From Pseudomonadota bacterium (lineage in GTDB: Bacteria > Pseudomonadota > Alphaproteobacteria > Acetobacterales > Acetobacteraceae), in contig JAJYYH010000036.1 in the NCBI GenBank assembly GCA_021801255.1, positions 124,001 through 188,000 on the forward strand: DNA of 64,000 bases, written 5' to 3'. A model generated the notes under the pieces. It had not been told where the DNA came from, made no database searches, and saw only the letters and a program-made list of their open reading frames with translations. Of the stretch, positions 8,657 through 26,703 are shown piece by piece. A program made the position numbers and the translations under genes. Within the stretch, counting starts at the first letter, position 1. The number at the start of each line of letters is the position of its first letter.

Positions 8657-10096
8657 GTGTTCGGGCTCGATATCTTCTGGCTGGCCGAGGTGTTCGGCCT
8701 AATCCGTGCCGCGTTCCTGGCGCCGCTCGGCTTTGTCCTGGCGCTCGGCACGAGCGTCCACATCGTGCTCCACAAGCGCGACGTTGGCGCCGCGATCGGC
8801 TGGATCGGCCTCGTCTGGCTCGCCCCTTTCGCCGGCGCCGCGCTCTATGTCGTCTTCGGCGTCAACCGTGTCCGCCGCCGCGCGCGGCTGCTGCGCGAGG
8901 GGCCAGCGGTGCCGCGCGGCGGGGTTCCCGCCTCGGCGGTGCCGCAGGATGACCCGCTCGCGCCGCTCGAGCGCGCGGTGCGCTATCTCACCGGGCGGCC
9001 AGCGCTCGCCGGCAACACCCTCACCGTGCTGCGCAACGGCGATGCCACCTATCCGGCGATGCGCGAGGCGATCGCCGAGGCCCGCGTTTCGGTCGCGCTC
9101 TCGACCTATATCCTCCGCGATGACGCGGCCGGCGGGCCGATCATCGCGGCACTGATCGCAGCGCACGGCCGGGGTGTTGCCGTGCGGGTGCTGCTCGATG
9201 GCATCGGCAGCGGCTATTTTTTCTCCCCCGCCTATCGCCGGCTACGTGAGGCCGGCGTGCCGGTCGCGCGCTTTCTCCACTCGCCGCTGCCCTGGCGCAT
9301 GCCGTTTCTCAATCTCCGCAGCCACAAGAAGGTGCTGCTGATCGATGGCGCGCGCGGCTTCACGGGGGGGATGAATATCGGCGCCGAGAACATGGTCGCA
9401 ACCCACCCCCGCGCTCCGGTGCGCGATACGCATTTTGCCGTCGCCGGCCCGGTGATCGGGCAGCTCGCCGGCGCTTTCGCCGAGGACTGGGCCTTCGTCA
9501 CCGGCGAGGAGCTGGCCGGGCCACGCTGGTTTCCCGCGCTCGCGCCGGCCGGCACGGCGGTGGCGCGCGTCATTACCTCCGGCCCCGATGAGGATGTCGA
9601 GAAAATCGAGTTCCTCGCACTCCAGGCCATCGCCTGCGCGCGGCACTCGGTGCACGTGATGACCCCCTATTTCCTGCCCGACGAACGCCTCGTCACCGCC
9701 CTCGCGCTCGCCGCCATGCGCGGCGTCGCGGTCGATATCTTGCTGCCCGAGCGCAGCAACCACCGCCTCGTCGATTGGGCGACAAGCGCCAATATCGGCC
9801 CGCTCTTCGCCGCCGGCTGCCGCCTCTGGCGCAACCCGGCGCCGTTCGATCACTCGAAAATCATGGTGGTGGACGGCACCTGGTGCCTGATCGGCAGCGC
9901 CAACTGGGACATGCGGAGCTTCCGGCTCAATTTTGAATTGAACATGGAGGTCTTCCACACCGATCTCGCGGCCCGGCTCCAGGCGCTCATGGCGGCAAGC
10001 CAGGGACCGCCCCTCACCGCCGCCCACCTCGCCGCCCGCCCGCTCCCGACGCGGCTCCGCGACGCCGTGGCGCGGCTGATGTTGCCCTACCTTTAG
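8657..10096 (+). CDS. cls: Cardiolipin synthase (phospholipase D family)
   Basis: 479 residues. Two N-terminal transmembrane segments (~residues 12-35 and 42-65) precede two phospholipase D domains. The HKD motifs are SHKKVLLIDGARGFTGG near residue 222 and DHSKIMVVDGTWCLIGSAN near 398. It joins two phosphatidylglycerol molecules to make cardiolipin plus glycerol at the inner membrane. The start is GTG 8657 with a GGAG-like site just upstream. It does not belong functionally to the box genes. A truncated dispersed repeat begins seven bases after its stop. Confidence 0.9.
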   Translation: MFGLDIFWLAEVFGLIRAAFLAPLGFVLALGTSVHIVLHKRDVGAAIGWIGLVWLAPFAGAALYVVFGVNRVRRRARLLREGPAVPRGGVPASAVPQDDPLAPLERAVRYLTGRPALAGNTLTVLRNGDATYPAMREAIAEARVSVALSTYILRDDAAGGPIIAALIAAHGRGVAVRVLLDGIGSGYFFSPAYRRLREAGVPVARFLHSPLPWRMPFLNLRSHKKVLLIDGARGFTGGMNIGAENMVATHPRAPVRDTHFAVAGPVIGQLAGAFAEDWAFVTGEELAGPRWFPALAPAGTAVARVITSGPDEDVEKIEFLALQAIACARHSVHVMTPYFLPDERLVTALALAAMRGVAVDILLPERSNHRLVDWATSANIGPLFAAGCRLWRNPAPFDHSKIMVVDGTWCLIGSANWDMRSFRLNFELNMEVFHTDLAARLQALMAASQGPPLTAAHLAARPLPTRLRDAVARLMLPYL

Positions 10097-10102
10097 CGAA
10101 GA

Positions 10103-10137
10103 CGAGGGCGCTGCCCTCGACCCGCTGGGGCCAGTGG
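10103..10137 (+). repeat. Dispersed dyad repeat, copy B, truncated
   Basis: Matches the first 35 bases of the repeat family and is closest to copy E at 47091 (same CTGGGGCCAGTGG). The match stops abruptly after CCAGTGG, where other copies continue CCCCAGACCC. The Cas9-like fragment starts at this breakpoint, which marks an insertion or inversion joint. Confidence 0.8.
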
Positions 10138-10243
10138 TGTGGCCGGAACAGGATGGTCGTTGCCCTTATTCCGGGAAGTCGCTGTCATGCGCGGATGCCC
10201 TGAGCGCCGAGGCAACCGAGATCGACCATATCTTCCCCAGTGG
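10138..10243 (+). pseudogene. Remnant of a Cas9-like HNH nuclease domain
   Basis: Reading from 10137, the frame gives VWPEQDGRCPYSGKSL, then ~13 residues, then ATEIDHIFPSG. This spacing of a Q-x-G-R-C-P-Y-S-G block and an E-I-D-H-I-x-P block is the HNH motif of type II-C Cas9 proteins of alphaproteobacteria. Only ~36 codons remain: no RuvC part, PAM-interacting part, start or partner genes, and no CRISPR repeats are visible. The left edge is the truncated repeat, the right edge an IS1595-type transposase tail. Another HNH endonuclease family is possible but the motif fits Cas9 best. Confidence 0.55.
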
Positions 10244-10244
10244 C

Positions 10245-10403
10245 TTATCCCTTTGCTTCCGCCGCGATCAGCATGTTGTAGGTGACCGGCTGGATGGCGG
10301 TTCTGATGCCCAGCAGTGTGCGGAAGCCGGCATGGGGCGTTTTGCGCCGGTTGAAGCAGAAGACGAATTCGTCGAGGTAGGACTGGAGATGCTGGCGGCG
10401 TAG
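10245..10403 (-). pseudogene. IS1595-family (ISXO2-like) transposase, C-terminal fragment
   Basis: The minus strand encodes LRRQHLQSYLDEFVFCFNRR, then KTPHAGFRTLLG, then TAIQPVTYNML and a stop. This is the conserved end of ISXO2-type DDE transposases. Only the last ~52 residues survive; upstream (to the right) the reading frame runs into the duplicated DUF255 fragment, so the catalytic core is gone. It explains how the Cas9 fragment and the duplicated gene piece came to lie side by side. Confidence 0.75.
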
Positions 10404-10412
10404 GCCGTGGTA

Positions 10413-10969
10413 GACGCCGAGCGCCTCGCGGCGGTCGCGCGCACCTGGTTTGGCAAGCAAGAAGGCGCCTTCACGACCGCCGCCAGCGACGCCGACGATC
10501 TGCCGCTCGGCGCCGCCGCGCGCGCCGTCATCGCCGCCGATAACGCGATGCCGGCGGGCAATGGCCTGCTGGCCGAGGTTTTCGCCCGGCTCTACCATCT
10601 CACCGGCGAAGACCTCTGGCGGGTGCATGCCGAGGCCGTGATCGCCGCCTGTAGCGGGCGGACCGAAACGCTGCCGGCCTGCCCCACCCTGCTCGCCGCG
10701 GCCGAAATGCTCGCCGCGGGCGGCAGCGTCACGGTAATCGGCAATCCCCACGACCCGGCGACCATGGCGCTTCTCGCCACCGCTCGCGCCACGCCTGATC
10801 CGACGCTCGCCGTGCTTGCCTGCGCCGATGCAAATTCGGTCCCATCAGGCCACCCCGCGCGCGGCAAAACGACTCTGCACGGCGCGCCCGCCACCTATGT
10901 CTGCCGCCGCCAGACCTGCGGGCTGCCGATTTCCACCGCCGCCGACCTCGCCGCCGCTCTCCAGGGGCG
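10413..10969 (+). pseudogene. 557-bp duplicated 3' fragment of the DUF255 (YyaL-like) gene
   Basis: Nearly identical, without net length change, to the 3' part of the DUF255 gene at 24671-25227, but in opposite orientation. The translation (DAERLAAVARTWFGKQEGAF through AADLAAALQGR) differs from the parent at about ten residues, for example K for N after TWFG and H for R in WRVHAE. It lacks the thioredoxin-like domain and most of the helical domain. The frame is open and could be expressed from upstream, but no start or ribosome binding site is evident, so it is best treated as a dead fragment and one arm of a large inverted repeat. Confidence 0.88.
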
Positions 10970-11028
10970 CTAAGGGGGAAATAAAAACGGGATTTTGTAA
11001 GTATTTGTTTTAGCCAGAAATGATAAGT

Positions 11029-11098
11029 CCAGGGGCTTTGCCCCTGGACCCCAGCAAAGGCGGAGCCTTTGCAATCCTTTCATGATGCGGATCTGGGG
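11029..11098 (-). repeat. Dispersed dyad repeat, copy C, right half only, inverted
   Basis: Begins CCAGGGGCTTTGCCCCTGG and continues through CAAAGGCGGAGCCTTTG to ATCTGGGG. Read on the minus strand it is the second half of the family consensus. The first half is missing and replaced by unrelated sequence. Copy B at 10103 holds exactly the missing first half. Confidence 0.8.
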
Positions 11099-11119
11099 AA
11101 GCTGGCGATATAACAGCGG

Positions 11120-12040
11120 TCATTTTTGGGGCGATTGATGTAAGCCGCCCCGATCGCCGCCACCTGTGCCGATCAAGGTGAGGAGCGCCGCGGCGGCCGG
11201 GCTGCAGGGCCGCTCGGCGTGGCGGAGGGCGACGAAATCCCGCTCCGGCAGCCGCACCCCCACCTGACGCAACAGCCCCGCCTCCAGGCTCGGCGCGGCG
11301 ACCGAGGCGGAGATCGCCGTTGCCCCCATCCCCGCCTCCACCGCCGCCCGCACCGCCTCGTTCGAGGGCAGTTCCAGCGCCACCCGGAGCGCCGCGCGTG
11401 CAACCCCGAGCTTTTCCACAGCCGCCTCGAAGACCGAGCGGGTGCCCGAGCCGGGCTCACGCAGCACCCACTCGCTCGCCGTCAGTTCAGCGGGCGCGAT
11501 CGCGGCGCGCGCCGACCAGGGATGTTCGGGCCCGACCACCACCACCAGCTGGTCGCGCGCGATCGCCGTACTGACCAGCAGGGGATCGTCCACCCCACCC
11601 TCGACAAAACCCAGCTCCACCACCCCCTCATGCACCGACGCCGCGACCTGCTGGGTATTCCCCACGGTGAGCCGGATCTCGATATCGGGATAGGCGCGGT
11701 GGTAGCGCACGAGATAGCGCGGCAGCCAGTAGCTCGCGATGGTCTGGCTTGCCTGCACGGTCAGTGCGCCACGCCGCAGCCCGGCGATTTCCGCGAGTGT
11801 CGCTTCCGCCGCCGCAGCGCGGGCGAGCACGGCGCGTGCCTCGTGCAGGAAAAGCGCCCCCGCCTCAGTCAACTGGATACCCCGGCCGACGCGGTGGAAA
11901 AGCCGCACGCCGTGACGCGCCTCAAGTGCGGCAACCGCAGCACTTGCCGCCGATTGCGCGAGGTTAAGCGTCTCCGCCGCGCGGGTTACGTGTTGCCGTT
12001 CAGCGACGGCAACGAAGATGCGAAGCTGTTCGAGTGTCAT
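11120..12040 (-). CDS. LysR-family transcriptional regulator
   Basis: 306 residues. N-terminal winged helix-turn-helix (MTLEQLRIFVAVAERQHVTR and onward, residues 1-60) and a LysR substrate-binding domain (~90-300). The RGALTVQASQTIASYWLPRYL segment resembles the CysL/CbbR-like subgroup. The start at 12040 matches the family; the open frame upstream is arginine-rich and unlikely to be coding. It is divergent from ogt with a 157-bp gap, so it may regulate ogt/qor and itself. The inducer is unknown. Confidence 0.88.
   Translation of the reverse strand: MTLEQLRIFVAVAERQHVTRAAETLNLAQSAASAAVAALEARHGVRLFHRVGRGIQLTEAGALFLHEARAVLARAAAAEATLAEIAGLRRGALTVQASQTIASYWLPRYLVRYHRAYPDIEIRLTVGNTQQVAASVHEGVVELGFVEGGVDDPLLVSTAIARDQLVVVVGPEHPWSARAAIAPAELTASEWVLREPGSGTRSVFEAAVEKLGVARAALRVALELPSNEAVRAAVEAGMGATAISASVAAPSLEAGLLRQVGVRLPERDFVALRHAERPCSPAAAALLTLIGTGGGDRGGLHQSPQK

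Positions 12041-24651: not shown

Positions 24652-26703
<2,052 letters not shown>

Follow-up and report, generated by a model that had tools for sequence, protein, structure and literature searches.

The question raised by this locus is what a short fragment resembling the HNH domain of Cas9 represents, and how it came to lie among broken gene pieces next to a transposase end. The window, i.e., the whole 64,000-nt stretch analysed (G000:C22:124001-188000), comes from a draft genome of 3.18 Mb in 67 contigs; the likeness of its genes suggests that its family is Acetobacteraceae. About 1 kb of broken pieces (Table 1) separates a phospholipase-D-domain gene (PLDc_2) ending at 10096, which we take to be cardiolipin-synthase-like and call cls, from the gene of a LysR-family regulator, which lies on the opposite strand and ends at 11120.

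Table 1. Features of the patchwork and its surroundings (window coordinates)
Feature	Coordinates	Strand	Remarks
Dispersed repeat, first half (A)	10099..10137	+	truncated in the loop of the central hairpin
Cas9 HNH relic	10138..10239	+	open frame, 33 alignable codons at 10140-10238; D-H of first HNH motif retained; remaining domain absent
IS1595-family 3' end	10240..10412	-	last ~55 transposase codons and terminal repeat; outer end 10240-10242
DUF255 thioredoxin-like gene-end copy	10413..10969	+	last 557 aligned bases, 97.7% identical to intact gene
Dispersed repeat, second half (B)	11025..11106	-	repeat of the A type in opposite orientation; similarity reaches 11098-11106
LysR-family regulator	11120..12040	-	unmatched in the congener stretches fetched
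Intact DUF255 thioredoxin-like gene	24652..26703	-	other copy of the duplicated end

Identity of the fragment

The initial annotation had pointed to Cas9-like motifs at Cas9-like spacing, and a single open frame at 10140-10238 indeed carries W-P-E-Q-D-G-R-C-P-Y-S-G-K followed by E-I-D-H-I-F-P. Its 33 codons translate without a stop as WPEQDGRCPYSGKSLSCADALSAEATEIDHIFP, and ORF and profile searches identify them as a genuine piece of a Cas9 HNH domain. The frame matched the NCBIfam Cas9 model TIGR01865 (E 1.1e-9) and Cas9d (1.7e-4), with scores far below the whole-protein cut-offs, as expected for 33 residues; the PADLOC Cas9 model gave 2.1e-8, and Pfam HNH_4 was matched above its cut-off (4.1e-6). 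The matches to Cas9 profiles fall on HNH positions. Among PDB sequences the best match was the Cas9 chain 8hud (4.9e-4), and 21 of the 24 matches at E <=10 are named Cas9, the others being two zinc-finger proteins and one other HNH protein. That the fragment derives instead from a non-Cas9 HNH nuclease of the phage or homing type is scarcely credible and was rejected: phage HNH proteins matched weakly (E 0.04 to 10; PHROGs 0.095), whereas the Cas9 matches are stronger by orders of magnitude, and in none of the Pfam, NCBIfam, PADLOC, PHROGs, PDB, phage and plasmid comparisons did another HNH family match better.

By its HNH motif residues and Cas9 sequence the fragment is thus a Cas9 relic. It is not a working Cas9: the RuvC parts, a complete HNH domain and the other domains are absent, and in its own genome only residues 582-622 of a 1,060-aa Cas9 query were matched. 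Because the second half of HNH and all other Cas9 parts are missing, no working product is to be expected from what remains. The relic is a dead cas9 gene fossil, a readable record of loss and not a new kind of system.

Cas9 relatives and remaining CRISPR-Cas sequence

The nearest relative of the relic is an intact 1,060-aa Cas9 (G093:C40; TIGR01865, E 5.5e-191) from a different genus of the same family, with which it shares 27 of 33 residues and 73 of 99 bases. When the relic was searched against 397 family genomes, taken from a larger group, 28 matched at E <=0.01, its own genome counted in. The six best other genomes (G093, 8.7e-15; G375, 7.1e-13; G125, 2.1e-9; G181, 4.3e-9; G258, 6.4e-9; G118, 7.2e-7) have their matches in open frames of at least 826 aa. 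A scan of genome contigs gave five loci, the best (77%) on a 4,002-bp contig letter-identical to G093:C40. This contig, JAIMBF010000140.1 (L073), is titled as a Terriglobia MAG yet equals G093:C40, which is placed in the window's family; its title or its binning seems to be in error.

In a tree of 31 Cas9 rows the six closest Cas9s formed one clade with support of 100/100. The tree used 31 of 32 extracted frames, one 588-aa frame having been dropped for length, and was made without loci L064 (G297) and L067 (G030; a 52-aa frame, with a stop in the match). The relic is not a row of this tree, and its clade is assigned from identity: the HNH domains of the clade (TIGR01865) are 54.8-79.4% identical to it over 31-34 residues. 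Among the genomes searched the clade spreads over five genera of the family (g89, g69, g121, g113-114 range). Compared with these relatives, the relic keeps just 33 of about 1,060 codons, and cas1, cas2 and an array do not adjoin it. The only clade locus read gene by gene, that of G181 (L081), has consecutive cas9 (1.5e-165), type II cas1 (TIGR03639, 8.1e-77), cas2 (3.6e-14) and an array of 47 repeats by a simple scan, and its 36-base repeat is near-identical in the G375, G125 and G118 loci. On gene order alone the G181 locus would be called type II-C. Through this one locus, the type II-C origin proposed by the initial annotation gains indirect support, and the relic's Cas9 was presumably of that kind. 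At the G375 locus (L079, G375:C16) the genome collection gives N for a stretch preceding the array.

Over the 33 codons compared with G093, pN was 0.113 and pS 0.782 (Ka 0.12, Ks beyond correction). The last 18 residues (SCADALSAEATEIDHIFP) are identical to those of G093, with eight synonymous changes and no nonsynonymous ones, small numbers in themselves. With synonymous sites saturated and nonsynonymous change low, most of the divergence arose under selection, while both sequences coded for Cas9.

A six-frame search of the relic's own genome with the full G093 Cas9 returned the relic alone (7.6e-12) and no other piece of this Cas9. A Cas9 profile search gave one further weak place, C53:34955-35098 (9.2e-4), which was rejected as an ordinary non-Cas9 HNH frame (HNH_5, 1.2e-15); the control of a RuvC III search matched 0 of 14 genomes. 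The five congeners (drafts of 86-100% completeness) gave no Cas9 of this lineage. A full Cas9 is present in one of the six genus genomes searched (G004) and is of a different lineage; the relic was rejected as a remnant of it, the identity being 38% and the G004 Cas9 lying in another clade. The clade's CRISPR repeat was not found within three mismatches in the six genomes of the genus, nor was any array found in the window by a simple repeat scan. PF09827 detected no Cas2 in the six genomes; its control matched 7 of 14, and it misses some Cas2, since none was detected in G003 despite its I-E-like array of 39 repeats.

One stand-alone Cas1 of ~409 aa was found (G000:C28:1736-2524, L102) on a 6.7-kb contig. 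It scores best with non-type-II models, matches the type II model at 4.7e-11 on part of its length only, and lies beside a frame that is presumably restriction-modification-like; we see no reason to connect it with the lost Cas9. The claim that no other Cas sequence is present is thus borne out near the fragment and, for Cas9, genome-wide, but not for Cas1. A check of the rest of the genome yielded this Cas1, no Cas2 by PF09827 and no clade repeat within three mismatches, and a type II-C set of cas9, cas1 and cas2 is absent, there being no full Cas9, no Cas2 by that model and a sole Cas1 that stands alone. In G001 a Cas1 match has a frame length similar to that of the C28 Cas1. In G003 the contig of the Cas1 (L104, G003:C41) carries the 39-repeat array, of the GCGTTCCCCGCGCCTGCGGGGATGAACCG kind, and two Cas1 matches lie in one frame.

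Edges of the relic and the surrounding patchwork

DNA similarity between the relic and the closest cas9 ends at 10238 on the right, so that the extent first given to the fragment (10138-10243) runs about 2-4 bases too far on that side. What follows is an ISXO2-like transposase end with a terminal repeat, which places it in the IS1595 family; with both profiles the short tail scores below the curated cut-off (PF12762, 24.2 bits, just under the 27-bit cut-off; NF033547, 1.3e-5). Annotated plasmid transposases of this family (NF033547, PF12762; ISAcr1-like) are 46-56% identical to the window's transposase end, and an unannotated stretch of a Hoeflea plasmid, 59.6% identical, aligns from 10242 inward. 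The terminal repeats of the family are likewise similar: relatives with both ends present have termini GTGCCTATCC (L106) or CTTGCCTATCC (ISAcr1 copies L115 and L116), and the window at 10240 reads GTGGCTTATCC, which resembles them. Unlike these relatives, the IS piece here comprises just about 170 bp from a single end and is not mobile. The ISAcr1 copies are flanked on both sides by 8-bp duplications, GAATCAGC and GTTCAACG, as read by eye; in the window one IS end is kept and the other flank, with its 8-bp duplication, is lost.

The IS end lies on the cas9 boundary. Because the terminal repeat stands between cas9 and the transposase, cas9 lies outside the IS, and this position disfavours the suggestion of the initial annotation that an IS had carried the cas9 piece as cargo. 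Cas9 and IS are adjacent, and no second copy of the IS was found by DNA in the six genomes of the genus (up to 40 candidates scored in each) against which cargo could be tested; still, given the repeat between them, we hold cargo to be very improbable.

The initial annotation also had the fragment wedged between a truncated repeat and the IS tail, and this arrangement is confirmed. On the left, cas9 similarity ends at about 10138-10140, next to the A half (10099-10137) of a dispersed repeat. Elsewhere in the window, copies continue after the A half with CCCCAGACC or CCCCCAGACC, and all 16 other A halves of this genome among the matches listed have the B half head-to-tail within 1-26 nt, unsplit. 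In the copy beside the relic, the B half follows 888 bases on and is inverted. When 10137 is joined to the reversed 11098, a complete repeat is regained, and the alignment score to three other copies rises from 24-30 (left) and 9-49 (right) to 38-70. The ~1-kb piece between the inverted halves, made up of the relic, the IS tail and the 557-bp gene-end copy, is probably a small inversion. The halves are inexact complements, sharing ~8 loop bases (GCCAGTGG to 10137, GCCAGCTT to 11106); one inversion accounts for the split repeat except for these shared bases, which allow for a staggered break or for two half copies of independent origin in place of a clean inversion. With the piece turned back, cas9 and lysR would share one direction, and the codons before 10138 are then unlike Cas9 save for one Leu. 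The repeat, hairpin-rich and ~100 bp long, occurs in the window at 4.7, 10.1, 11.0, 47.1 and 59.4 kb and on many contigs, the rest of this genome having at least 38 second halves and at least 16 first halves; it also has matches in four of the five congeners (G001, G003, G004 and G005).

At 10413 the IS meets the gene-end copy. The GACGCC at this joint belongs to the DUF255 gene and also fits the IS frame, which reads GVYHG where relatives have GTHRG and GIHHG, and the joint resembles those made by illegitimate joining. The copy and the intact gene end differ at 13 positions; with congeners as reference, four changes are derived in the copy, four in the intact gene, and five are unassignable. 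In G003, G001 and G005 the DUF255 gene lies beside a parA-rsmG-mnmG-mnmE block, then ogt and qor, these names being, save for Pfam matches, our own reading; the DUF255 gene, ogt and qor have the same direction. parB was seen in two of the three, the G003 stretch ending before it. In the window the block and the intact DUF255 gene lie at 24.6-32.7 kb, and ogt and qor lie at 12.2-13.7 kb beside the patchwork. As read by eye, a remnant of the former DUF255 gene stop seems to persist in ogt at ~12105. Cls was matched in all five congeners, and none of its window neighbours lay beside it in the congener stretches fetched (4.5-14 kb). These unmatched neighbours, with the separation of the block from ogt and qor, mark the patchwork area as a rearrangement point. 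Relative to ogt, the gene-end copy now points the same way as the DUF255 gene does in these three congeners, with which the inversion fits poorly, and the intact gene, its end copy, ogt and qor would need at least one event beyond a single inversion. The cas9/IS boundary and the broken neighbours agree with the transposition and rearrangement first proposed. The DUF255 gene and its inverted end copy, ~14 kb apart, are arms that could let the intervening 13.7 kb flip.

Origin of the relic

We consider it quite probable, from the relic and the IS edge, that the fragment is the remnant of a dead cas9 of the type II-C kind, shaped by IS1595 insertion, illegitimate recombination and probable inversion. 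Judging from one edge, an IS1595-family element would have entered cas9 where it codes for HNH, immediately after the EIDHIFP motif. Illegitimate recombination would then have left no more than about 100 bp of cas9 and about 170 bp of the IS, and would have joined the IS stump to the copied DUF255 gene end. The ~960-bp piece (10138 to 11098-11106) was probably also turned round, splitting the dispersed repeat. The order of these events and the earlier function of cas9 are what we infer from the pieces, and no congener keeps this Cas9 from which the ancestral state could be read.

The initial annotation had suggested an ancestor with a type II-C system lost through transposition and deletion. 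Cas9, its II-C kind and the rearrangement stand; a full resident ancestor does not follow, and, because none of the five congeners gave this Cas9 lineage, full ancestral residence and late arrival, whole or as debris, are equally open. Decay in place of a resident II-C locus of this lineage is a tentative reading, given somewhat less than an even chance. Clade members in five genera of the family (G093, G375, G125, G181, G258, G118) make residence possible, and cas9 would run with lysR in the undone arrangement, but no congener gave this Cas9, the window had no array by a simple repeat scan, and the genome had no other Cas9 piece. Alternatively, the cas9-IS piece was never in a working resident locus and was captured as debris, e.g., from incoming DNA, in the repair of a chromosomal break. 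We judge this filler DNA, too, a little short of an even bet. In favour of capture, none of the five congeners gave this Cas9 lineage, the site is composed of small fragments with no relation to each other, GACGCC suits either side of the joint between IS and gene end, and the clade repeat was not found in the genome within three mismatches; however, loss of a resident locus would give the same picture, and 72,556 plasmid records held no close relative (8 match, best 52.9%).

A more elaborate version of the preferred reading, that of a dead cas9 remnant, is unlikely: a lately working Cas9 would have been knocked out in HNH by IS1595 and then deleted under selection, e.g., against self-targeting, and break repair, perhaps at the hairpin-forming dispersed repeats, would have fused the ends of cas9, IS and host genes into an inverted patchwork from which the order of events can be read.

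No published report of this cas9 relic was found among the matches listed. In Mollicutes, according to an excerpt of PMC6882279, inactivated or partly lost type II systems remain in genomes. The relic is like these remnants, as the excerpt presents them, in being left by such a system, and differs in that about 100 bp of cas9, abutting an IS end, are all that was found of the system. The relic leaves knowledge of Cas9 unchanged; it is an ordinary, well-readable gene fossil, of which 100 bp can be assigned to a Cas9 clade and read for the mode of breakage, and it shows that such a Cas9 was lost from, or passed through, a genus of which one of six searched genomes holds a full, and different, Cas9.
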